Shown one piece after another: positions 4,589 to 64,000 of a stretch of DNA of 64,000 nt. The first letter of the stretch is position 1; every line of letters begins with the position of its first letter. Below the pieces are notes generated by a model that made no database searches, was not told where the DNA came from, and worked only from the letters and a program-made list of their open reading frames with translations. The DNA is taken from assembly GCA_010206265.1 (NCBI GenBank), contig VIQV01000018.1:1-64000 (forward strand), in the 5' to 3' direction. The position numbers and the translations under genes were made by a program. This stretch comes from Lachnospiraceae bacterium MD329. Its GTDB lineage: Bacteria; Bacillota; Clostridia; UBA1381.

Positions 4589-5128
4589 ATGAAGTTTAAG
4601 ATTATCGGAAGAAGATACGACTTAACAGACAAAATTAAGGACTATGTAGAGAAAAAGCTCGGAAAGTTGGATAAATTCTTTAAAGACGAGTCCGAGGCGA
4701 GAGTGGTTATCGGAACAATCAAAGATAACGATTACATTGAAGCTACGATTTATGCAGGCGGAATGATGTACAGAGCAGAGACATCGGACAAGGAAATTCT
4801 GGCGGCGATTGATAAAATCGTAGACGTTATTGAAAGACAGATAAGAAAGAATAAAACGCGTCTTGAAAAGAAAATAAAGCGTGACGCAACTATTGATAAT
4901 ATGCTGTTAAGCGGCGGAGCTTATACGGAAGGTGAAGAAACGAAGGAATTTGAGGTTGTAAAGACAAAGAGATTTACAGTTAAACCGATGAGCAGTGAGG
5001 AGGCAATTCTGCAGATGAACCTTCTTGGACATAATTTCTTCGTATTTAAGAATCAGGAAACAGATGAAATGAATATAGTATATAAGCGCCGTGACGGCAA
5101 ATACGCTATTATCGAATCAATAGAATAA
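4589..5128 (+). CDS. hpf: Ribosome hibernation promoting factor, long form
   Basis: This 179-residue protein joins the 30S subunit and dimerises ribosomes into inactive 100S particles. Residues 1 to about 100 are the ribosome-binding HPF/YfiA domain (MKFKIIGRRYDLTDKIKDYV) and about 118-179 are the dimerisation domain of long HPFs (VKPMSSEEAILQMNLLGHNF, then YKRRDGKYAIIE). The ATG at 4589 is preferred over a GTG at 4580 because AGAAGGAG ends eight bases before it and the protein then starts as family members do. It is monocistronic, divergent from the mannosyltransferase and followed by a terminator. Confidence 0.95.
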   Translation: MKFKIIGRRYDLTDKIKDYVEKKLGKLDKFFKDESEARVVIGTIKDNDYIEATIYAGGMMYRAETSDKEILAAIDKIVDVIERQIRKNKTRLEKKIKRDATIDNMLLSGGAYTEGEETKEFEVVKTKRFTVKPMSSEEAILQMNLLGHNFFVFKNQETDEMNIVYKRRDGKYAIIESIE

Positions 5129-5140
5129 GAAAAAAACAGC

Positions 5141-5166
5141 AAGGGCGGATTTTTCCGCCTTTGTTT
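5141..5166 (+). terminator. Rho-independent terminator after hpf
   Basis: AAGGGCGG pairs with CCGCCTTT (one G-U) and is followed by GTTTT. Confidence 0.8.
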
Positions 5167-5190
5167 TAAGAAGTAAGGAGGAAGGATAAA

Positions 5191-5730
5191 ATGAATTTAA
5201 AGGGAACTAAGACAGAGGAAAACCTGATGGCGGCATTCGCAGGAGAATCACAGGCGAGAAATAAGTATACATATTTTGCAAGCAAGGCAAAAAAGGACGG
5301 ATATGTACAGATAGCTCAAATTTTTGAAGAAACTGCTAATAATGAAAAGGAACACGCAAAGCTATGGTATAAACTTTTAAACGGCGGTTCGGTTTCAGAT
5401 ACGGTGACTAACCTTGAAGAGGCGGCAGCAGGTGAAAATTATGAATGGACAGATATGTATGCAGGTTTTGCAAAAGAGGCAAGGGAAGAGGGCTTTAACG
5501 ATATAGCAGAATTGTTTGAAGGTGTGGCGGAAATAGAAAAGGAACACGAAGAACGATATAAAAAACTGCTTGCCAATATTAAAGGCGGCGTGGTGTTCTC
5601 CAAAGACGGTGATGTTATCTGGGAATGTGCTAACTGTGGTCATATTCATATCGGGAAGAAGGCGCCTGAAGTGTGTCCTGTATGCTCCCACCCTCAGTCG
5701 TATTTTAAGGTGAAGGTTGAAAATTATTGA
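5191..5730 (+). CDS. rbr: Rubrerythrin
   Basis: A 179-residue non-haem iron peroxidase that reduces hydrogen peroxide in anaerobes. The N-terminal four-helix domain carries the diiron ligands: a Glu in [10 protein letters not shown]-x-x-H in [10 protein letters not shown], and EKEHEERY near residue 117. The C-terminal rubredoxin-like domain has two Cys pairs, WECANCG and [17 protein letters not shown] lies just upstream of the ATG. It stands alone between two terminators. The architecture is the normal one and nothing is missing. Confidence 0.96.
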
Positions 5731-5750
5731 TATAAAAGCCTGTAAAGAGA

Positions 5751-5784
5751 AAAAACAGATATGCTTTGCATATCTGTTTTTTTG
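5751..5784. terminator. Bidirectional terminator between rbr and rnj
   Basis: AAAACAGATATGC, a TTT loop, then GCATATCTGTTTTTTT. The stem is flanked by A-run and T-run, so it can serve both convergent genes. Confidence 0.9.
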
Positions 5785-7452
5785 TTATATTTCCTCAATT
5801 ATAGGCAATATCATAGGTGAACGTTTAGTCTGTTCGTAAATATAATGAGCTACTGCCGACCTGAGCGAGCTTTTCAGAGTTGACCAGTCCATATTGCGTT
5901 TGCCAAGACAATCTGAAATGCTTTCGCCTGCTACAGCCCGTACTCCGTCAATAAGTGTTTCCGCCTCTCGTACATATACAAATCCGCGTGAAATAACGTC
6001 AGGACGTGATACCATTTTCTTGTCGTCGTGAGAGATGGTAACAACAACGATAATAAGTCCGTCTTCGCTTAGATGTTTTCTGTCGCGGAGCACAATATTG
6101 CCGACATCGCCGACTCCAAGACCGTCTACAAGTATTTTGCCTGCCTGAACAGTACCGCCGAGCTTGGCTGTTTTCTGGTCAAGTTCAAGTACTTGTCCGT
6201 TTGACAGTACAAAGCTGTTGTTTCTCGGTATACCGACACTTTGCGCCAGCTCTTTGTGCAAAACAAGGTGACGGTGCTCGCCGTGTACAGGAATAAAGAA
6301 TTTTGGCTTGGTAAGAGCCAGAATAAGTTTTAATTCTTCCTGACAGGCGTGTCCCGAAACGTGAACCTCAGCAAGTGCACGGTAAATTACTTCCGCGCCT
6401 ATTTTAAATAATTCATTGATTACGTTTGAAACGGATTTTTCGTTTCCTGGAATAGGCGTTGCGCTTATTATAATTAGGTCGTCTTTGGTGACCTCGACCT
6501 TTCGGTGGTCAGAGAATGCCATTCTTGTAAGTGCGCTCATAGGTTCTCCCTGTGAGCCTGTTGTAATAATAACTATCTGATTAGGTCTGTATTTTTTTAT
6601 GTTGTCAATGTTAATAAGCACGCCTTCGGGAACCTTCATATAACCGAGAAGTATCGAAATTTCAACTATGTTTTCCATACTGCGTCCCGAAACGGCAACC
6701 TTTCTGCCGTTTTTCGCGGCAGCGTCAATAATCTGCTGTACACGGTGTACATTCGACGCAAATGTTGCGACGATAATACGCTTGTTGCAGCCCTTAAAAA
6801 TATTCTCAAAACTTTCGCCGACACTGCGTTCACTCATTGCGTATCCTGCTCTTTCGACGTTTGTACTGTCCGACATAAGAGCAAGTACGCCCTCCTTGCC
6901 AAGTTCACCGAGCCTTGCAAGGTCAATCATATCTCCTACAATAGGAGTAGTATCAATTTTAAAATCACCCATATGAATAACTGTGCCGACAGGCGTTTTA
7001 ATCGCCAGTGCGGCAGAATCGGCTATTGAGTGGTTTGTACGGATAAATTCAATAGAAAAACATTGTCCTGCGTGTATAATATTTCCGTATCTCGCGCGTA
7101 CAAGTTTTACCTGTGATAAGAGATTATGTTCCTTCAGCTTGTGCTCTACAAGTCCGATCGTGAGCCTTGTACCGTAAACAGGAACGTTAATCGCTTTTAA
7201 GAAATACGGCAGTCCGCCGATATGGTCCTCGTGACCGTGAGTAAGAAAAATGCCCTTAATTTTCGACCAGTTTTTTTCAAGATATGAAATATCGTTAATA
7301 ACCATATCTACTCCGGGCATATCATCATCGGGGAAAGCCATACCGCAATCAACCATTATAATCTCATTTCCGTACTCAATCGCGGTCAAATTTTTTCCGA
7401 TTTCATCAAGACCGCCCAATGGTATGATTTTCAGTTTTTTAGCTTTTGCCAC
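5785..7452 (-). CDS. rnj: Ribonuclease J
   Basis: A 555-residue metallo-beta-lactamase/beta-CASP ribonuclease with endo- and 5' to 3' exonuclease activity, central to RNA decay in Firmicutes. The metal site THGHEDHIGG (His72, His74, Asp76, His77) is intact. It continues with HMGDFKID, SDSTNVERAG, the beta-CASP domain, and HVSGHACQEEL and PVHGEHRHL near residues 360-390. The C-terminal domain ends with IIEEI. The start codon is GTG with GGAGG eight bases upstream. Only one J paralogue lies in this window. Confidence 0.96.
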   Translation of the reverse strand: MAKAKKLKIIPLGGLDEIGKNLTAIEYGNEIIMVDCGMAFPDDDMPGVDMVINDISYLEKNWSKIKGIFLTHGHEDHIGGLPYFLKAINVPVYGTRLTIGLVEHKLKEHNLLSQVKLVRARYGNIIHAGQCFSIEFIRTNHSIADSAALAIKTPVGTVIHMGDFKIDTTPIVGDMIDLARLGELGKEGVLALMSDSTNVERAGYAMSERSVGESFENIFKGCNKRIIVATFASNVHRVQQIIDAAAKNGRKVAVSGRSMENIVEISILLGYMKVPEGVLINIDNIKKYRPNQIVIITTGSQGEPMSALTRMAFSDHRKVEVTKDDLIIISATPIPGNEKSVSNVINELFKIGAEVIYRALAEVHVSGHACQEELKLILALTKPKFFIPVHGEHRHLVLHKELAQSVGIPRNNSFVLSNGQVLELDQKTAKLGGTVQAGKILVDGLGVGDVGNIVLRDRKHLSEDGLIIVVVTISHDDKKMVSRPDVISRGFVYVREAETLIDGVRAVAGESISDCLGKRNMDWSTLKSSLRSAVAHYIYEQTKRSPMILPIIEEI

Positions 7453-7543
7453 AATTTTACCTCCATATTTAATTTTTGTTTACCGCGCGCAATTTGCATA
7501 TTTATTCGTGCGGTTAATTCCGACCACTATTACAACATTATAT

Positions 7544-54167: not shown

Positions 54168-54242
54168 GCCCCTGTAGTTAAGTGGATATAACAAGTCCCT
54201 CCTAAGGATTAGTCACGCGTTCGACTCGCGTCGGGGGTGCCA
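54168..54242 (+). tRNA. tRNA-Arg (CCT anticodon)
   Basis: Acceptor GCCCCTG/CGGGGGT (G-T at the tip), D stem GTTA/TAAC, anticodon stem AGTCC/GGATT with loop CTCCTAA giving anticodon CCT, T stem ACGCG/CGCGT with loop TTCGACT, CCA encoded. It sits at the boundary between chromosomal genes and mobile-element genes, a common tyrosine-recombinase attachment site. Confidence 0.94.
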
Positions 54243-54302: not shown

Positions 54303-54346
54303 GGAGTAATAGTGAATTGTGGCTGATTCACTATTACTCCTTTTTT
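54303..54346 (+). terminator. Strong terminator at the element's left edge
   Basis: GGAGTAATAGTGAAT (54303-54317) and ATTCACTATTACTCC (54326-54340) form a perfect 15-bp stem, then TTTTTT. It would insulate the element from chromosomal transcription. Confidence 0.85.
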
Positions 54347-54393
54347 ATTGCTACAGGTATTATTTAAATTTTAAGAGTATGGAGGATAAGAAA

Positions 54394-55170
54394 ATGAAAA
54401 TCATTTCGGTTACAACGCAGAAAGGTGGAGTAGGAAAAACTACTTCAGCAATAAACATTTCCGCAGCATTGGCGGAAAAGGGAAAAAAGGTTTTGCTTGT
54501 GGATTTAGACCCACAGGGTAATGCGAGTATAGGTTGTGGAATTGACAACAGAGGTACAGACACTATTGTAAGGGCAATGCAGGCAGATATAAACGGTAAT
54601 TTTAATTTAAATGATTTAGCAATAACAAAAACAAAGAAATTTGCCGTTTTACCAAGTAATATAGAACTTTCAAATCTTGAGTTAATACTTGTTAGTGTGA
54701 TAGGTCGAGAAGGCGTTTTAAAGAGGATTTTAGAGCCTATTAAGGACCAATATGATTACATAATTATTGACACTCTACCGTCATTAGGTATTCTTACGGT
54801 TAATGCTTTCACAGCATCTGATTATGTGATAGTACCTATTTTGGCAAAAGATTATTACAGCCTGCAAGGTTATGATGCTCTGATGCAGTCGGTGGAGCTG
54901 ACAAAACGCTGCATAAATCCTAATTTAAAAGTATTAGGAGAAGTTATCACAATGTATGATGGCAGAAATAAAAATGACCATATCATTTCTGAAACAATAC
55001 GAACAGATGAACGAACCAATTTATTTAATACAGTAATTCCGTTGTCTACAAAAGCAGCAGAGGCAACTCGAATGGGCAAGACGATTCTTGAACACGACAG
55101 TAATGGTAAAGCTGCTATGGCTTACAGAAATCTTACAGATGAAATTTTAATGAGAACAGAGGAGGAATGA
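54394..55170 (+). CDS. parA: ParA-family partitioning ATPase
   Basis: A 258-residue deviant Walker-type ATPase. The P-loop is TTQKGGVGKTTSAINI at residues 8-23, Walker A' VLLVDLDPQGNASIG follows, and YDYIIIDTLPSLG is Walker B. It positions or segregates the element together with ParB. GGAGG precedes ATG 54394; an upstream in-frame ATG at 54319 overlaps the edge terminator and is rejected. It is separated from parB by a non-coding stretch and the replication-type gene. Confidence 0.94.
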   Translation: MKIISVTTQKGGVGKTTSAINISAALAEKGKKVLLVDLDPQGNASIGCGIDNRGTDTIVRAMQADINGNFNLNDLAITKTKKFAVLPSNIELSNLELILVSVIGREGVLKRILEPIKDQYDYIIIDTLPSLGILTVNAFTASDYVIVPILAKDYYSLQGYDALMQSVELTKRCINPNLKVLGEVITMYDGRNKNDHIISETIRTDERTNLFNTVIPLSTKAAEATRMGKTILEHDSNGKAAMAYRNLTDEILMRTEEE

Positions 55171-55616: not shown

Positions 55617-56270
55617 ATGAAAAGATTTGTAAAGCTTGATAAGAAAATCTTTTCAGAGAATCTAAATCCGTATAGTATTTCTATTTATGGCAGTATAAGT
55701 ATATATGTCAATGCCAATGGTGAGTGTTTTCCATCAAGACGAACATTAGCAGAACGAGGTGGATTTTCTATAGCAACATATAACAAATACATAAAAATAG
55801 TCATAGAGAAAGGCTTTTTGAGGAAAAGCAGTAGATGGAGAGCCAATGGCTCACAGACAAGTAATTTATTTAAGGTATCAGAAATAAAAAATTCGGCTTT
55901 TTTTATTCCTTCTGATATATTTAATAAGAAATTACGAGCTTGTGAATTAGCTGTATATATGTATTTATGCAGCAGAAAGACATCAAAAAATAAATGCTTT
56001 GTATCTCAAAGAGAAATTGCAAATGCTTGTGGTATAAGTCGTCGTCAAGTAGGGTTAATTATACGACAATTGCAGAAAAAGAAAATAATAACTACACGTC
56101 GGCAACAAAATTTATATAATAACGGTAATTATATTTTAGAATATACCATATGTGTTTCAGAGGATTTAGAGGATTTAAAAGATTTTGATATTGATATAAT
56201 CCTTTCAAAAAGTATTTATGTTGATATGCGTGATTATATCAAATGTGGTAAAGTAAAAAATTTGCAGTAA
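55617..56270 (+). CDS. Replication-type helix-turn-helix protein
   Basis: A 217-residue protein with two winged-helix units. The first (residues about 15-85) has INANGECFPSRRTLAERGG-like sequence, ATYNKYIKIVIEKGFLRK and a basic wing. The second (about 100-165) has ELAVYMYLCSRKTS, CFVSQREIANACGISRRQVG and IIRQLQKKKIITTRR. Tandem wHTH of this kind is seen in replication initiators and DnaD-like or RepA_N-related proteins of plasmids and ICEs. It lies directly downstream of the structured non-coding region, which could hold its origin. Its stop is 13 bases from parB. Confidence 0.7.
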   Translation: MKRFVKLDKKIFSENLNPYSISIYGSISIYVNANGECFPSRRTLAERGGFSIATYNKYIKIVIEKGFLRKSSRWRANGSQTSNLFKVSEIKNSAFFIPSDIFNKKLRACELAVYMYLCSRKTSKNKCFVSQREIANACGISRRQVGLIIRQLQKKKIITTRRQQNLYNNGNYILEYTICVSEDLEDLKDFDIDIILSKSIYVDMRDYIKCGKVKNLQ

Positions 56271-56283
56271 GGAGAAATTTATA

Positions 56284-57360
56284 ATGGCAGAAGGAATAAA
56301 TAGAGATTATACAAAAACATTAAGTATGTTCCAAAGTACAGCTCCAGAACAGAAAACAACAATAGCTGGAGTATGTGAAAATGGTGGTTATGTAGAATTG
56401 TCAATCAGTATGCTTGAGCATTTTCCAGACCATCCGTTTGAACTATATGATGGAGAACGATTTGAAGATTTGGCGGCGAGTATAAAGGAACACGGGGTCC
56501 TTTCACCTGTACTGGTTCGAAAAATGGATGATGGACGCTATCAAATATTTTCAGGGCATAATCGTTGTGAATGTGCAAAATCAGTAGGTTTTAAAACCGT
56601 TCCTTGTATCGTATTTAAAAATTTGAGTGATGATGACGCACTTATGCTTTTATTAGATAGTAATAAGCAGCGCGGAATTACAGAAATGAAAATATCTAAA
56701 CAGGCTCATATTTATGCGCTTGAGGTTGAGGTTAATAAACGTCAGGGAAAGCGTTCAGACCTTATAGAAAATATTGAAAAAAATCTTGAAATCCTTAGTA
56801 ATGATGCGGATTGTGGAACTTCTTCCCAATTTGGGAAGAAGTTAACGACAATGGACGTTGTGGGAGAGAAATATGGTATTTCTAAAAATACCATTGCTCG
56901 TCTTTTAAGAATTGATACGCTTATAGATGAACTTAAACTCAGAATTGATGATGAAGAATTTGCAGTCAATGCTGGTGTGGAACTATCATATTTGCCTGAT
57001 GTTGAACAAGAAATTATAGATGATGTTCTAAGGGAATTTGATTATAGACTTGACATAAAAAAAGCTCGGCAAATACGAGAAGTCTCTAAAGCCGGTAAAC
57101 TGAATAAAGTTACAGTTGTAGATATATTGGAAGGTAAATACAATAAATCAAGACGTGTAAATACGTCTAAAATTAAAGCATTTACATTAAAGCCTAAATT
57201 CCTTGAGAGATATTATACTCCTGAAATTTCTCAGGCGGTTATTGCAGAGGACATAGAAAACAGTATGGATTTATGGAAACAAATAAAAAGAAAGTATCCT
57301 GAATTGTCGTCGGTAGAAATAAAAGCTCAAATAGATAAGCTGCTGGATATTGCAGAATAA
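56284..57360 (+). CDS. parB: ParB/Spo0J-family partition protein
   Basis: A 358-residue DNA-binding CTP-switch-family protein. The N-terminal ParB domain (about 45-115) has HPFELYDGERFEDLAASIKE, GVLSPVLVRKMDDGRYQIFS and the nucleotide-site motif GHNRCECAK. The central HTH region is VVGEKYGISKNTIARLLRI near 200. The C-terminal part is helical. AAGGAG precedes the ATG. With ParA it should stabilise the element when excised or steer its replication. A perfect 12-bp inverted repeat lies within the coding sequence. Confidence 0.93.
   Translation: MAEGINRDYTKTLSMFQSTAPEQKTTIAGVCENGGYVELSISMLEHFPDHPFELYDGERFEDLAASIKEHGVLSPVLVRKMDDGRYQIFSGHNRCECAKSVGFKTVPCIVFKNLSDDDALMLLLDSNKQRGITEMKISKQAHIYALEVEVNKRQGKRSDLIENIEKNLEILSNDADCGTSSQFGKKLTTMDVVGEKYGISKNTIARLLRIDTLIDELKLRIDDEEFAVNAGVELSYLPDVEQEIIDDVLREFDYRLDIKKARQIREVSKAGKLNKVTVVDILEGKYNKSRRVNTSKIKAFTLKPKFLERYYTPEISQAVIAEDIENSMDLWKQIKRKYPELSSVEIKAQIDKLLDIAE
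56817..56843. repeat. Perfect 12-bp inverted repeat inside parB
   Basis: AACTTCTTCCCA (56817-56828), ATT, TGGGAAGAAGTT (56832-56843). It encodes the linker GTSSQFGKKLT between the ParB domain and the HTH. Confidence 0.85.
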
Positions 57361-57415: not shown

Positions 57416-58147
57416 ATGAGCAGAAAAAAGAGTTTTAGACCAAGATATTTAGCTATAATCTTTATCATATGTTTTGGAGCAGTTTTTGGCTTCACAAATA
57501 ATGATATTAAAAATGTAATTCAGAGTGTTATATCTACAAGAACTATTTTAAATACAACAGATGTAGGAACTATACCAGAGTATAGTGAGAATCCATATGT
57601 CGTGATAAATGATAATATTCCGTCATTTTCGGAAGATGATATTACAACAGAATCATTTGAACAGTATAGTGAACTTGATATTTTGGGAAGATGTGGGACT
57701 GCATTTGCAAATTTGAGTTTGGATACAATGCCGACAGAAGAACGAGGAAATATAGGAATGATAAAACCTTCGGGATGGCAGATTTCTAAATATGATTTTA
57801 TTGATGGAAAATATTTATATAATCGCTGCCATCTTATTGGGTTTCAGTTATCAGGTGAAAATGCTAATAAACAAAATTTAATTACCGGCACAAGATATTT
57901 AAATGTAGAGGGGATGTTGCCCTTCGAAAACCGAGTAGCAGAATATATACGAAAAACAGGAAATCATATATTATACAGAGTTAGCCCTGTATTTAGAGAC
58001 AATAATCTTCTTGCAGATGGTGTTCAAATTGAGGCACTGTCAGTAGAAGATGATGGAAAAGGGATATGTTTTAATGTTTTTTGCTATAATGTTCAGCCGG
58101 GGGTTGAAATTGATTATAAAAACGGTAATAACAAGAAAATAAAATAA
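57416..58147 (+). CDS. Membrane-anchored DNA/RNA non-specific endonuclease (NUC/EndA-like)
   Basis: A 243-residue protein with an N-terminal membrane anchor (about 10-28, YLAIIFIICFGAVFGF) and an extracellular beta-beta-alpha-Me nuclease domain. The active site reads LYNRCHLIGFQLSGENANKQ: the His and following Asn positions match D-R-G-H-type nucleases, with N-R-C-H in place of D-R-G-H, as in other clostridial members. RYLNVEGMLPFENRVAEYIR is also typical. Such enzymes cut DNA at the cell surface and could act in DNA uptake or competitor exclusion. GGAG precedes the ATG. Confidence 0.9.
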   Translation: MSRKKSFRPRYLAIIFIICFGAVFGFTNNDIKNVIQSVISTRTILNTTDVGTIPEYSENPYVVINDNIPSFSEDDITTESFEQYSELDILGRCGTAFANLSLDTMPTEERGNIGMIKPSGWQISKYDFIDGKYLYNRCHLIGFQLSGENANKQNLITGTRYLNVEGMLPFENRVAEYIRKTGNHILYRVSPVFRDNNLLADGVQIEALSVEDDGKGICFNVFCYNVQPGVEIDYKNGNNKKIK

Positions 58148-58169
58148 CAATACATAATATAATTATAAA

Positions 58170-58200
58170 GTTAAGGACGTTTAAAACGTCCTTAATTTTA
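58170..58200 (+). terminator. Terminator after the nuclease gene
   Basis: TTAAGGACG and CGTCCTTAA followed by TTTTAT. Confidence 0.85.
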
Positions 58201-58230
58201 TTCTAAATCTGTTTAAGGAGTGATAAATTT

Positions 58231-58485
58231 ATGAAAGCTATTGGTGTAGTGAGAAGGGTTGATAAGTTGGGAAGAATAGTAGTACCAGTGGAAGTCAGGC
58301 GGGAATTTGGAATTGAAATTCAAGACCCTGTAGAAATTTTTACAGAGGATGATAGTATTATTCTGAAAAAGTATTGTAAGAATTGTACTTTCTGCGGAAA
58401 TGCTGATGATGTGCGGCAGTTTGAGGGTAAAAATATCTGTTCAGCTTGTATGGAGGCGATAGCCGATGAGATTAATAAGCATTGA
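58231..58485 (+). CDS. AbrB/MazE-family DNA-binding protein with C-terminal zinc ribbon
   Basis: An 84-residue regulator. Residues 1-47 are the swapped-hairpin AbrB domain (GVVRRVDKLGRIVVPVEVRR, then FGIEIQDPVEIF). Residues 49-75 form a Cys4 ribbon with Cys52, Cys55, Cys70 and Cys73 (NCTFCG, NICSACM). AAGGAGTG precedes the ATG. The end of this gene contains both the ribosome binding site (GGAGG, 58452-58456) and the ATG of the next gene, with a 20-base overlap, so the two are translationally coupled. Likely an autoregulator of this cluster or a transition-state-type repressor. Confidence 0.9.
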   Translation: MKAIGVVRRVDKLGRIVVPVEVRREFGIEIQDPVEIFTEDDSIILKKYCKNCTFCGNADDVRQFEGKNICSACMEAIADEINKH

Positions 58486-59113
58486 TGTTGGTATGAATAA
58501 TTTTGTAACAATTACAAATAACATTGGAGATGAACCTATTATAATCAAAGGCAAGGCTCTGAAGGCGCGTAATCAATGGTATAACAAATGCATTAAGGAA
58601 ATAAAGGAAGATAAAAAAGCGGATTTTAATATTCGAATAAGTCGTACAGCGTCCAGTTCTATATCATACATTATTGACTATTTCAGTGAAGTGAGTGATT
58701 GGATTATAGGATATTGTATCAGTAATAATATTGACACTGTTATTATAGGAAAATATAAAATATTAGAAAAGAAAGATTTTGTTAGTATTCCGTTTGAACA
58801 TTTTTATTCTTTGCTTGAAACAAAGTGTAAATACTATAATATTCGTTATAAAGTTATAAATGAAAAATATACTTCCGGTACATCGTTTTTTGATGATGAG
58901 CCGCCTATAAAAGCGTATTATAATAAGCAACGCCGAGTGTATAAGCATTTATGGCAATGCAATAACGGTGATTTGGTTAATGCCGATGTAAATGATAGTT
59001 ATCAGATTATGCGAAAAGCATATCCAGAGTTGTTTGAAAACGGTATAGACGGATTCAAGAAAGACCCTCGTGTTGTAAAAATGAATAAGGAGTGGATGAA
59101 ATATGCAGATTAA
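58466..59113 (+). CDS. Stand-alone RuvC nuclease domain derived from TnpB
   Basis: A 215-residue protein matching only the C-terminal RuvC half of TnpB/OrfB-type RNA-guided nucleases. RuvC-I is MRLISIDVGMNNFVTI (Asp7), followed by IIKGKALKARNQWYNK. The canonical RuvC-II position reads TVIIGKYK (no Glu), but INEKYTSGTSFFDDEPP supplies Glu133, as in TnpB clades reported to have a rearranged catalytic site. RuvC-III is LVNADVNDSYQIMRKA (Asp174). No wedge, REC or zinc-finger part is present: the protein begins at RuvC-I. GGAGG nine bases upstream of ATG 58466 argues for a real gene, not a fragment. Its frame is intact throughout. The role is unknown: an exapted nuclease, guide-independent, or partner-dependent. 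Confidence 0.8.
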   Translation: MRLISIDVGMNNFVTITNNIGDEPIIIKGKALKARNQWYNKCIKEIKEDKKADFNIRISRTASSSISYIIDYFSEVSDWIIGYCISNNIDTVIIGKYKILEKKDFVSIPFEHFYSLLETKCKYYNIRYKVINEKYTSGTSFFDDEPPIKAYYNKQRRVYKHLWQCNNGDLVNADVNDSYQIMRKAYPELFENGIDGFKKDPRVVKMNKEWMKYAD

Positions 59114-59489
59114 GAAATTACTTAAAATTGCACCAGTAATAGATAATGTGGCTATGGATTATATACATTTAAAGCATTTAGAGCAAGCAATGGAAGTAGA
59201 TGAGGAGCTTGCAGATGCTATTGTTTATGGTAAGATAGCATTATCAGAAGCACATAGAATTCAAGAAGAATTTTTTCCTATGAGTGAAAACAGCGAAGAA
59301 ATTGTAATGACGTTACTAAACCAAAAATTTGTATATGATGAGGTCAATTACAGCGAAGAACTTAACTATAAGACAGTAAGAAAATATTGTGACGTGGGAA
59401 TGTTATTGTATGTAGCAGAGGCAATAGCAGATGAAATAAACAAATTGAATAATCGTATAAACGATTTGTTAGGGGAAAAAGTCTTTTAA
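59103..59489 (+). CDS. Small helical protein of unknown function
   Basis: A 128-residue, mostly helical acidic protein starting inside the stop of the RuvC gene (AAGGAGTGG upstream), hence same operon and coupled translation. Residues 1-60 hold repeated amphipathic helices (YIHLKHLEQAMEVDEELADA), and the C-terminal AEAIADEINKLNNRINDLL may be a coiled coil. The stretch EAIADEINK is identical to one at the end of the AbrB-like protein, although encoded by different codons. I recognise no family. Confidence 0.75.
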   Translation: MQIKKLLKIAPVIDNVAMDYIHLKHLEQAMEVDEELADAIVYGKIALSEAHRIQEEFFPMSENSEEIVMTLLNQKFVYDEVNYSEELNYKTVRKYCDVGMLLYVAEAIADEINKLNNRINDLLGEKVF

Positions 59490-59518: not shown

Positions 59519-62500
59519 ATGATATCATTAAAGGATTTTAATGCTCTTATTGAAATGGGACAAAGGGAGATTATATCTGATGTATCACAATGGCAAAAAT
59601 GGCTTGAATTTGCGGCGAATACATATAAATATGATTTAAAAAACAGCATAGCTGTATATATACAAAAACCTAATGCGTATATGATTGCTGACTTTAAAAC
59701 GTGGAATGTTATCGGTAGAAAAATACACAGAGGGCAGAAGGGCAGTTATATATCAGAAAATAATAAAATAAAATATGTATTTGACATAACTCAAACGTAT
59801 GGAAATGAATTTGACCGCTGGAAAATAGACGATAAGGAAGGGCTTATAGCGTATGCAAATAAGAAGTACGGTATAAACAATAAATCTTTTGAGGACTATT
59901 TATCATCAATGATATCATATTTGACTTCCGACAAAGACAATTCAGAAATGGTATTTTTAAGCACGAAATATATGGTGTCAAGACGACTTGGAGTAGTTAG
60001 TAATTTTGATGATATAATTAATGCGTATGGTCTAATAAGTACATCAGACAGGAAACATCTTTTAGAACAGACATACAACAGTGCTGCACAAATGCTGCGT
60101 AAGATAGAAAAAGAAAATCGTGAATTCTTAGTTTGGAGGAATAAAAATGCAAAAAGAACTGTTGATAGAAATGAGCAGTCTGCGTCAAACAGACATAATA
60201 CAGACATTACCGACAAAAGCGTTTTTGAACAAAACGCAGATACTTCGAAGACTGAATACAGCGAGGTACGCTCTTTCGGCAATGGACTTTATGGAGAAAA
60301 ATCAGCCGGAACGGTATATGGAATTGATGGAACAGGGAGAGCTGCTGACAATCTTATGGGAAGTACAGATAGAGGCAAAGAATTTTCGCCTACAGGTAGC
60401 GGAGAAACTTTCAGCTCAGCCGAATATCCAGAAGTTGAGCTATTGGGAGAAAACACAAGAAATGGCAACGCAGATGGCGTTGATAGAACAACAGATAATG
60501 CGAGAAATAGTGTTAGTCCAGAGATAAGATTAAATATATCAAATGAAAAAAGTTATACTTCAAAATCCCAGAAGTATAACTTTTCTATTTCTGATATTGA
60601 AGAAATAGTGAAACCGAAAAACCAGAAGATTAAAGATAATATTGAGGCAATACAAAAATTAAAAGAAATTGAAATGGAAAGTCGTTTAGCTACTCCTGAA
60701 GAGCAATTGTTATTATCAAAGTATATTGGTTGGGGTGGGTTACCGGAAGTGTTTGAGGAAAAGCATACATCATATTCTGATTTGCACAACTTGCTTACCA
60801 ATGATGAGTATACACAGATAAGAGCCAGTGTTTTAAATTCACATTATACACCTAATGTAATTATCAGTGAAATGTATAATGCTCTTCAAAATATGGGTGT
60901 TAAAGACGGAAAATTTTTAGAGTCTGCGTGCGGTACAGGAAAGTTTATGGGACTACTACCGGATAATATGCAGAATAGTAAGTTTTATGGTGTGGAGATT
61001 GATAGCATAACAGGGAGGATTGCAAAACAATTATATCAGAAAAATAATATACGGATATGCGGATTTGAGGAAACATCTTTTAAAGATAACAGTTTTGATG
61101 TTGTTATAGGTAATGTTCCATTTGGTCAATATAAGGTTAATGATATTGCATATAATAAATATAATTTTATGATACACGATTATTTTATGGCTAAAAATAT
61201 AGATAAACTGCGTTCTGGGGGTATTGCCGTACTCATTACATCTGCTGGAACTCTTGATAAAATTGATAGTAAATGCAGACGGTATTTAGCTGAACGCGCA
61301 GACCTTATCGGTGCAATAAGACTTCCTAACAATGCTTTTTCAGGTGCTGGTACAAGTGTAACGGCAGATATTATTTTTTTACAAAAGCGTGATGAACTGC
61401 GTATAGGAGAAATGCCTGACTGGGTAGATGTTGACAAATATTCAGAGGATATTAAAATAAATAAGTATTTTATAGCACACCCTGATATGATATTGGGTGA
61501 TATGATACTTGAAAGTTCTCGTTTTGGATTTGACAGTGTTTGTAAAGCTCGTGATGGTGAGGAGCTGGAGCAAGAATTACATAGTGCAGTATTAAAACTA
61601 TCTGCTCATATTACAGAAACAAAAAGCATAGAATCTGAAGAACCTGATATTGATATAGATATATCTGGAATAAGAAATCTTACATATACAGAAATAAACG
61701 GTGAATTTTATTATAATTTTAATGGCAAGTTAAATAAAGTTCAAGATTTTAAAGGTATAAGAGCAGAACGTATTAAGGGACTTCATAATATACGTCAGAT
61801 TACTAGAAGGCTAATAGATATACAAACTGTAGGTTGCAGCGAACTAGAGCTTAAAGCCGAACAATCCAAATTAAATATTGCATACGATGAATTTATAAAA
61901 AAATATGATTACATTCATTCAAAGCCCAATAGAAATGCTTTCAGTGATGATATGGATTTACCATTACTTCTATCATTAGAAAATGAAGATGAAAGTGGTA
62001 ATATTACAAAGGCGGATATGTTTTATAAACAGACAATTCGCCCGATAATGGTTATTGATAAAGTAGACAATGCTATGGACGGTCTGAAAGTATCATTATC
62101 AGAAAGAGGAAGAGTAGATATATCATATATTGCAAAATTAACGGATATGCAGCCAGAAATGGTAATCAGAGAATTACAGGGTATGATATATAAAAATCCT
62201 GTTAAAAACCTTAAAGGCGATGAGTTCTACGGCTATGAAACTGCAAATGAATATTTATCGGGTAATGTTTTAGAAAAGCTTAATATAGCTAAAATGTATA
62301 ATGAAAGTCATCAGTATGATGAAAATATAGCAGCCTTAGAAAAAGTGCAGCCACAGCCTCTATCAGCGGCAGATATTGCGTGGAAAATAGGTGTACCTTG
62401 GATAAGCGTGGAGGATTATGAGAGTTTTATATACGAAACATTTGATACGAAATCATTACATAGAAGGAATCATAGTTATTCAGATAGTGGAGCAATTATT

Positions 62501-64000
62501 ATTCGATATAATAATTATAATAATGTATGGACTATTTATAATAAAAGTTTTGAAAATGGTAATCTTAAATCCGTAGCGGAGTTCGGTACAGAACGTAGGA
62601 ATGCATATGAGATAATGGAAGATTGCCTTAATCTTCAAAATTCGGTTGTTCGTGACAGTCATACTGATGGTGAAAAAGTTTGGTATACTGTAAACTCAAC
62701 AGAAACAGCAAAGGCACAGGAAAAACAAGAACTTATACGTAAAAGGTTTTCAGATTGGATTATGGACAATCCGGAATTACGAGATAAGTATACTGAATAT
62801 TATAATAAAACATATAATAACACACGATTGAGAGCCTATGATGGCTCTCATTTAAATTTTCCGGGAATGTCACCTGAAATAAAATTACTTAAACATCAAG
62901 TAGACGGTATCGCACGAATTTTATATAGTGATACAAATACATTGTTAGCTCATTCAGTTGGTGCAGGTAAAACTTTTGAAATGACTGCAAGCTGTATGGA
63001 ACTAAAACGGTTGGGAATTGCAAAAAAAAGTATGTTTGTTGTACCGAATCATTTGACGGAGCAATGGGGTAGCGAATTTCTAAGACTATATCCCAGTGCT
63101 AATATTCTTATAGCAACTAAAAAAGATTTTCAGAAAGAAAATAGACATAACTTTTTTTCCAAGATAGCTGTAGGTGATTGGGATGCAGTGATTATTGGGC
63201 ATAGTCAGTTTGAAAAAATACCAATTTCAAACGAACGTCTAGCAAATGAAATACAACTTGAGATTGAAAAAATTACAGACGCAATACAATCTATTGAAGG
63301 TGAAGGTCAGAGGTATTCTGTCAAGCAGCTTGAAAGCAAGAAAAAGAATTTACAAGTGAAATTCGAAATGCTTACAGCACAGGAATTAAAAGATGATATT
63401 TTCACGTTTGAACAATTGGGAGTTGACTATATGTTTGTTGATGAGGCTCATCTATATAAAAACTGCCTAATAACGACAAAGCTTACTAATATTGCTGGAT
63501 TATCCACAACTGCTGCAAACAAGTCAATGGATATGTTATGGAAGTGCAAATATTTAGCAGAAATAAATAACGGAAAAGGCGTTGTTTTTGCAACAGGAAC
63601 GCCTATATCTAATTCTATCACTGAAATGTATGTTATGCAAAGATATTTAGATTATGGCTTGCTTGAGCGTAGTGGATTTGAATTTTTTGATAACTGGGTT
63701 GCGATGTTTGGAAATATAACAACGGGTTTAGAATTAGCTCCTGAAGGAACAGGATATAGAATGAAAAACAGATTATCTAAATTTGATAGTCTGCCGGAGC
63801 TGATGACGATGTTTGCTCATTTTACTGATGTACAGACAGCAGATATGTTGAATTTAGATGTGCCGTCCGCCACGATACATAATATAGCGTTGGAGGCTGA
63901 CGAGTTTACCTTAGCAGAAATGATGAGTTATGTGGACAGAGCTACTGCTATAAGAGATAGGTTGGTACAGCCTGAGGAAGATAATATGTTGAAAATAACT
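59519..64000 (+). CDS. Giant ArdC-like / N6-methylase-like / SNF2-type helicase protein, 5' part
   Basis: An open frame of 1494 codons continuing past the window. Residues about 5-90 resemble the ArdC N-terminal ssDNA-binding domain ([37 protein letters not shown]). A low-complexity polar linker spans about 210-340. A methyltransferase-like domain follows with [11 protein letters not shown] (near 469) and IGNVPFGQY (near 531, in the place of N-P-P-Y). A long middle region leads to an SNF2/DEAD-like helicase with [12 protein letters not shown] (near 1145), VDEAHLYKN (near 1306) and ATGTPISNS (near 1360). ATG 59519 follows ATGGAGGTGAG. Such proteins are hallmarks of Tn1549-like and related clostridial conjugative elements and are thought to protect or process element DNA. 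The C-terminal helicase lobe is outside the window. Confidence 0.9.
60147..60527 (+). CDS. Nested alternate-frame ORF, TnpV-like
   Basis: A 126-residue ORF in another frame inside the helicase gene, exactly over its low-complexity linker. It has its own GGAGG with an ATG eight bases later. The protein looks real: [60 protein letters not shown], and a helical end. The pattern (Leu/Arg-rich helix, RPERY-like motif, G-x-L-x-x-x-L, repeated Gln/Met) resembles the small TnpV-type proteins of clostridial conjugative elements. The host frame here is Gly/Ser/Asn/Thr-rich, as expected when the other frame is the one under selection. Family name is tentative. Confidence 0.6.

Follow-up and report, generated by a model that had tools for sequence, protein, structure and literature searches.

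The window analysed here, the whole 64,000-nucleotide stretch of contig VIQV01000018.1 from Lachnospiraceae bacterium MD329, carries a mobile, integrative element of gut bacteria in which one half of TnpB, the protein from which the Cas12 enzymes of CRISPR systems descend, appears to have become a gene of its own. The gene is an open reading frame (ORF) of 215 aa at 58466..59113 (+), referred to below as RuvC-only, and its sequence identifies it as the C-terminal, RuvC plus TNB, half of TnpB with a glutamate in the alternative (Ealt) position. The probable history is a single loss of the WED/REC half from a full-length TnpB of the Ealt type, in an ancestor of this element lineage. The RuvC and TNB half would then have been retained as an independent, guide RNA-free nuclease gene within a relaxase-bearing integrative element, in the row ParB, AbrB, RuvC-only, p128 and helicase.

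The RuvC-only protein

RuvC-only opens with an ATG, its first residues (MRLISIDVGMNN) being those of RuvC-I, and runs without internal stops. A GGAGG ribosome-binding site (RBS) lies 9 bases 5′ of the ATG, within the upstream AbrB gene (58231-58485), which RuvC-only overlaps by 20 bases at its start; at its end it is overlapped by 11 bases by the ORF of p128, starting at 59103. An earlier note on this DNA had described a stop-free 215-residue ORF with an intact triad, an RBS inside AbrB and translational coupling to the next ORF. All of these features are real, and four homologues share the layout and the triad.

Of the 389 positions in the NCBIfam model of RNA-guided TnpB, RuvC-only matches 198-389 only (1.1e-16, 61 bits, under the model cut-off of 100), and both OrfB_IS605 and Cas12f1-like_TNB match above the Pfam cut-offs. 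PADLOC returned a weak match named Csx1 (3.9e-5). A search of PDB sequences with the single sequence gave nothing convincing; a profile search matched Cas12f chains. An AlphaFold2 model built on a 32-row alignment reached a predicted local distance difference test score (pLDDT) of 85.6 and a predicted template-modelling score (pTM) of 0.84. Its best fold matches in the PDB are chains of Cas12f (8j12, 6.4e-9; 8dzj, TM-score 0.73 of the query), Fanzor2 (9b0l, 2.1e-6) and ISDra2 TnpB (8h1j, 5.5e-6), with the RuvC resolvase 7xhj a weaker match (9.7e-5). RuvC Holliday-junction resolvases share the RNase H-like fold, but the sequence and the TNB insert place RuvC-only with TnpB.

The three catalytic codons are GAT at 58484-58486 (Asp7), GAA at 58862-58864 (Glu133) and GAT at 58985-58987 (Asp174). 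Asp7 aligns to RuvC-I and Asp174 to RuvC-III, while Gly95 stands near the canonical RuvC-II position and the glutamate is found at 133, ahead of a Y/F-T-S motif. At columns 7, 95, 133 and 174, the residues are D, G, E and D in all 25 TnpB relatives compared and in all four known copies of RuvC-only. One part of PMC10711439 defines a canonical position of the glutamate (Ecan) and an alternative one (Ealt), and a passage in PMC10278001 on RuvC-II-rearranged clades states no a priori expectation of inactivity. On these columns, definitions and that statement, the triad is read as complete and RuvC-only as a member of an Ealt-type family, in agreement with the earlier claim of a second acidic residue in the rearranged position.

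It is quite unlikely that the protein has kept the RuvC fold merely as a scaffold, acting with AbrB as a non-catalytic nucleic-acid-binding or regulatory protein. Its gene is coupled to that of an AbrB-fold and presumably DNA-binding protein, and TnpB derivatives have already become regulators in the case of TldR, as outlined in a section of PMC13418256. However, Asp7, Glu133 and Asp174, their surroundings and the TnpB core residues are invariant in all four copies, which is the opposite of what is seen in TldR.

Recurrence, selection and origin

RuvC-only was found in 4 of the 16 genomes of the genus (the own genome, G005, G010 and G014), as a RuvC-only protein in every case, with 57-65% identity between copies. 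The genome panels searched are samples. Among 199 relatives, nine genomes gave a match at 1e-10, four of these matches being RuvC-only and all four in the genus; the remaining 79 genomes of the order held no match at E ≤ 1e-20. The further matches among 391 genomes of the class have frames of 338-528 aa, except for G187 (211). Among 398 genomes of the phylum, 57 places were found including that of the window; 44 of the 56 others have frames of at least 395 aa and 12 have frames below 320 aa.

No stand-alone RuvC with a complete triad was found among the short frames examined elsewhere. Five of the 12 short phylum-level frames were fetched (L172, L173, L174, L175 and L177), along with L009. N-terminal remnants are retained in L172, L173 and L009 and in part in L175, L174 starts past RuvC-I, and L177 lies at a contig edge. 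As for the other seven, judged by profile match, six match only from position 107 or later and so lack RuvC-I, and the last (G504:C12) starts 94 bases from its contig end. Cyanobacterial short frames (L040, L042, L053 and L073, among 73 loci) also keep N-terminal remnants. L069 has no such remnant but stops before RuvC-III; L037 and L054 are at contig edges, and L076 is decayed. The last of these, at about 4900-6120 of a Clostridiaceae metagenome contig, is a decayed TnpB C-terminal tail directly after a stretch that, by eye, looks like a CRISPR array. The single-contig phylum-level genome G777 (L172, L173, L176) has seven RuvC-profile matches, of which two lie in frames that are short and damaged, and serves as a control for ordinary TnpB truncation.

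Scans of viral and genome contigs with the single RuvC-only protein gave no match. Alignment-based scans returned one viral and 59 genome loci; two of the 59 are copies already counted (L024 = G005, L025 = G010), and none of the other genome loci is a stand-alone RuvC with an intact triad. The own genome, whose assembly is about 91% complete, has no other TnpB-like place at E ≤ 1e-3.

Selection on the gene is strong and purifying. In the six pairwise comparisons the proportion of nonsynonymous differences (pN) is 0.22-0.26 and that of synonymous differences (pS) 0.73-0.84, the latter saturated; a finite synonymous rate (dS) was obtained for one pair only, giving ω = 0.11. ParB, compared in three elements, is similar to RuvC-only (pN 0.21-0.25), and AbrB (0.26-0.35) and p128 (0.32-0.42) evolve faster. 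When 1000 copies were evolved neutrally to 20% divergence, 99.6% gained a stop codon, which none of the four real copies has.

Truncated tnpB genes are common elsewhere, as the 12 of 56 other places with frames below 320 aa attest; the ones examined have been interrupted or shortened, or else lie at the edge of a contig. That RuvC-only is one more decayed transposon gene is nevertheless hardly credible, and is refuted by the data as they stand: the break, the triad and the neighbours are identical in four copies at saturated synonymous divergence, and no remnant of the N-terminal half is left. The earlier note had held that the domain was exapted rather than decaying, and that homologues lacking the N-terminal part should recur beside AbrB instead of being scattered truncations. 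Both points have stood up, since all four copies lie beside AbrB and p128, share an invariant triad, form one clade and are under purifying selection. The domain thus reads as exapted.

A tree of the RuvC parts was built from 29 rows, the four copies and 25 chosen relatives, among them L042 (with a frameshifted N-terminal half) and L007 (with only 117 open residues upstream). The RuvC-only copies form one clade (100/100), and the state arises by a single change in 100% of 200 bootstrap trees. The stem of the clade measures 1.32 changes per site and its tips 0.18-0.33; identity to the 25 relatives is 26-40%. Two full-length TnpBs stand closest to the clade (88/79): L010, which comes from the same genus, and L083, which comes from a human-gut phage contig. 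Both have the YTSGTSF motif of the four copies. The clade is further marked by a 9-column gap after GKYK, by RG changed to KH and by NG changed to ND; L010 has part of the gap. The simplest history would be that a TnpB lineage living in the genus or its phages was truncated once.

Apparent loss of guide binding

The WED/REC region, approximately the 185 N-terminal residues of TnpB, is absent from the ORF in all four copies. A tblastn search of the four elements with the N-terminal half of TnpB picked up no more than the start of RuvC-I and fragments at chance level; the full-length control L010 gave 3e-56.

According to a portion of PMC10097598, ISDra2 TnpB holds its omega-RNA through WED and through basic residues on the RuvC helices α1 and α2. 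The codons of α2 in RuvC-only (residues 57-86, part of H54-86, the model's second helix) lie at 58634..58723 (+). This helix is basic in TnpB relatives and slightly acidic here: its net charge is -1, -1, -2 and -1 in the four copies versus +1 to +9 in the 25 relatives, two ranges that do not overlap. Position 65 is Arg in all 25 relatives and Ser or Thr in the copies. At position 75, where 21 of 25 relatives have Lys, the copies have Glu, Asn or Ser, and at position 78 the charge is reversed, from Arg or Lys in 20 of 25 to Asp or Glu. Since conserved positive charges have been lost from α2, a role independent of a guide can be argued for.

No sign of an omega-RNA was found at the locus, although its absence cannot be proved from sequence alone. 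At the Rfam gathering score only the tRNA matched; a terminator-like hairpin at about 58158-58216 drew two matches far below their gathering score (25 and 24.3 bits, where 87 is required). For an RNA hidden within coding sequence, identical codons at shared amino acids were compared with the number expected from codon usage, giving 115 seen and 113 expected in AbrB, 372 and 356 in RuvC-only and 152 and 141 in p128, with no clear excess of synonymous constraint; the largest local score, 2.26 at RuvC residues 102-121, was not counted as a signal. In the four copies RuvC-only and p128 overlap or are at most 19 bases apart, and 12-72 bases separate p128 from the helicase gene. With an invariant triad, WED/REC gone, the basic charge of α2 lost and no omega-RNA signal, the protein looks as if catalysis was kept and guide binding lost.

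RuvC-only might still be RNA-guided if an omega-RNA were encoded elsewhere and the neighbouring proteins stood in for WED/REC. The α1 motif NQWYNK is kept, and the AbrB fold, a small β-structure, could conceivably take the place of WED. But the basic α2 is lost, with its charge reversal at position 78, there is no embedded or intergenic RNA signal at the locus, and no guide-supplying partner is visible in the own genome, as it has no other TnpB-like place. Such guidance is very unlikely.

Partner genes and possible function

The AbrB gene (58231..58485, +) encodes an 84-aa AbrB/MazE-fold protein (Pfam MazE_antitoxin, 1.5e-10; PHROG 4681, 6e-32) with a CxxC...CxxC zinc-ribbon-like C-terminal tail. 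The four cysteines of the tail are kept in all four copies, and zinc-ribbon models match it only under their cut-off. AbrB and RuvC-only overlap by 20, 14, 10 and 20 bases in the four copies, with the RBS inside AbrB each time. The p128 ORF (59103..59489, +), which overlaps the RuvC stop, encodes an acidic protein predicted to be all-helical. Of 70 family genomes, p128 is present in the four that carry RuvC-only, and no relatives were found in viral contigs, plasmids or phages. Three class-level matches (E 1.2e-4 to 8e-3) were rejected as too weak. No known fold matched at E ≤ 1e-3, and no family matched convincingly. The gene order AbrB/Zn-ribbon, RuvC-only, p128 and methyltransferase/helicase is the same in all four copies.

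The isoelectric point (pI) of p128 is 4.2-4.6 and that of RuvC-only 8.9-9.3 across the four copies, and the two proteins could form a complex. In the favoured account, RuvC-only would cut nucleic acid by the usual two-metal RuvC chemistry, and its substrate would most likely be single-stranded or branched DNA arising from replication or transfer of the element. AbrB/Zn-ribbon may control or dock the nuclease, and the acidic p128 may bind the basic RuvC-only to restrain or position it, restraint being the preferred guess. The location of the module, with ParAB beside it and the helicase, primase and relaxase genes after it, suggests a task on the DNA of the element itself. An RNA substrate is possible as well, since TnpB RuvC also processes RNA, as noted at one point in PMC10278001.

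A more specific possibility, to be held tentatively, is a protein-directed nuclease. AbrB/Zn-ribbon would give the DNA specificity that replaces the guide, and the acidic partner would restrain the enzyme, which might act in the element's own DNA transactions or damage competing DNA. Such a guide-free nuclease would be a third route of TnpB domestication.

A small AbrB/MazE-fold gene overlapping a nuclease gene is a usual arrangement in type II toxin-antitoxin loci. A serious rival to a role on the element's own DNA, albeit rather unlikely, is an addiction module, with AbrB as the autoregulator, RuvC-only as a toxic nuclease and p128 as its acidic inhibitor, which together with ParAB would retain the element in the cell. 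Here, too, an AbrB/MazE-fold gene overlaps a nuclease-fold gene, p128 and RuvC-only have opposite pI values in all four copies and occur in the same four genomes, and ParAB adjoins. On the other hand, the tail of this AbrB is zinc-ribbon-like and does not seem to be a known toxin-binding tail, the nuclease is a TnpB RuvC, and the third, acidic gene is without a convincing family or fold match. Moreover, addiction modules usually spread, and this one is found in one element lineage only.

The host element

A tRNA-Arg (CCT) gene (54168..54242, +) lies directly before the element, abutting its ParA side, and is probably its attachment site. ParA follows at 54319..55170 (+; Pfam AAA_31; ORF taken from the first possible start), with homologues in G005 and G010. 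Next come an HTH_36/DnaD-like replication-type protein (55617..56270, +; identified by domain match), with a homologue in G010, and ParB (56284..57360, +; Pfam ParB_N), the upstream gene of the operon. In G010, ParB directly precedes the module; in G005 it is one small ORF away, and in the window it is separated by a gene for a DNA/RNA non-specific endonuclease (Endonuclea_NS_2 by domain match; 57416..58147, +). The elements of G005 and G010 have nothing that matches this nuclease gene, and G014 is cut by the contig edge. A terminator-like hairpin is seen by eye after it, at about 58170-58200. In G010, a serine-recombinase-like ORF was also noted by eye upstream of ParA.

Downstream of the module, 29 bases after p128, starts a methyltransferase/SNF2-helicase gene (59519..64000, + strand, continuing to 65275 of the contig). 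Further along the same contig are a toprim primase, MobC and a MobA/VirD2-type relaxase, all three with homologues in G014 and G010. No conjugation or secretion apparatus was identified among the proteins scanned, in a contig that ends at 71,882, and no transposase domain among the scanned neighbour proteins. The earlier designation of an integrative and conjugative element is accordingly kept only in part: relaxase, MobC, ParAB and primase are present, but no transfer apparatus was recognised among those proteins, and the term relaxase-bearing integrative element is preferred as the putative assignment.

AbrB, RuvC-only and p128 were not found among the last eight same-strand ORFs upstream of other helicase loci in the family (20 of 25 read), five of which (L155, L156, L159, L164 and L166) are uninformative because their contigs stop at the gene or close to it. 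As far as contigs reach, related helicase-bearing elements of the family carry other genes at the place of the module, which is also absent from five further ParB loci.

Several observations weigh against the favoured account. The family consists of four sequences from one genus, two of them from metagenome assemblies (L024, L025), and the support for its nearest relatives, 88/79, is below the star level of the tree. Helix α1, which is at the RNA side in ISDra2, is kept, and the residue-by-residue equivalence of α2 with ISDra2 depends on a weak alignment. The G014 contig starts 145 bases before AbrB, so that ParB is not visible there. The G005 element has a shorter helicase gene, with no toprim, MobC or relaxase found over 38 kb.

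Two side observations were made. A TnpV-like ORF (60147-60527, +; Pfam TnpV 2.8e-6, barely above the cut-off) lies in another frame wholly within the methyltransferase/helicase ORF (59519-65275). Both frames are open in all four elements, with 42-50% identity in the TnpV frame and 25-34% in the helicase frame over the same DNA, and the overlap is taken, on this pattern, as a conserved dual-coded stretch. In L094, two adjacent ORFs downstream of the relaxase (6292-6960 and 6960-7538) have, by eye, near-identical membrane-anchor-like N-termini and coiled-coil-like tails, and are probably a recent tandem duplication.

Relation to other TnpB descendants

RuvC-only shares the RuvC and TNB half and the triad with TnpB of the IS200/IS605 and IS607 groups (Ealt or RuvC-II-rearranged, NADxN type). 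It differs in having no WED/REC, a non-basic α2, no transposase domain in its scanned neighbours and a fixed row of genes in an integrative element. Because WED/REC was looked for and found missing, RuvC-only is filed as an exapted variant of TnpB and not as TnpB itself. To our knowledge, the known TnpB descendants (Cas12, Fanzor and TldR) keep the guide-binding half. Cas12f, a group of compact type V effectors which provides the best fold matches, has REC/WED and, according to a part of PMC10097598 on UnCas12f1, is guide-bound and acts as a dimer.

TldR, too, goes back to a transposon TnpB that was exapted and became linked to new neighbour genes; as described in a section of PMC13418256, its active site is gone and its binding of guide RNA and DNA persists. 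RuvC-only, in contrast, has kept an intact triad in all four copies and lost the guide-binding parts, with no WED/REC and no RNA signal beside the gene. The clade thus seems to be the mirror image of the TldR repressors. Shortened forms of ISDra2 TnpB have also been engineered, but in those presented in a passage of PMC10951260 the C-terminal tail is cut, WED/REC is kept and a guide is needed, whereas in RuvC-only the N-terminal half was removed, and in nature. A literature search turned up no RuvC-only TnpB descendant and no TnpB-AbrB pair, with most subscription journals outside its reach.

If the favoured account is correct, the two halves of TnpB would be separable in evolution. RuvC-only, at 215 residues, would then be a naturally occurring minimal RuvC protein, allowing a direct test of the TnpB RuvC domain in the absence of RNA. 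It also suggests where more such proteins may hide, namely among the short, single-copy TnpB fragments that are usually dismissed as decayed.
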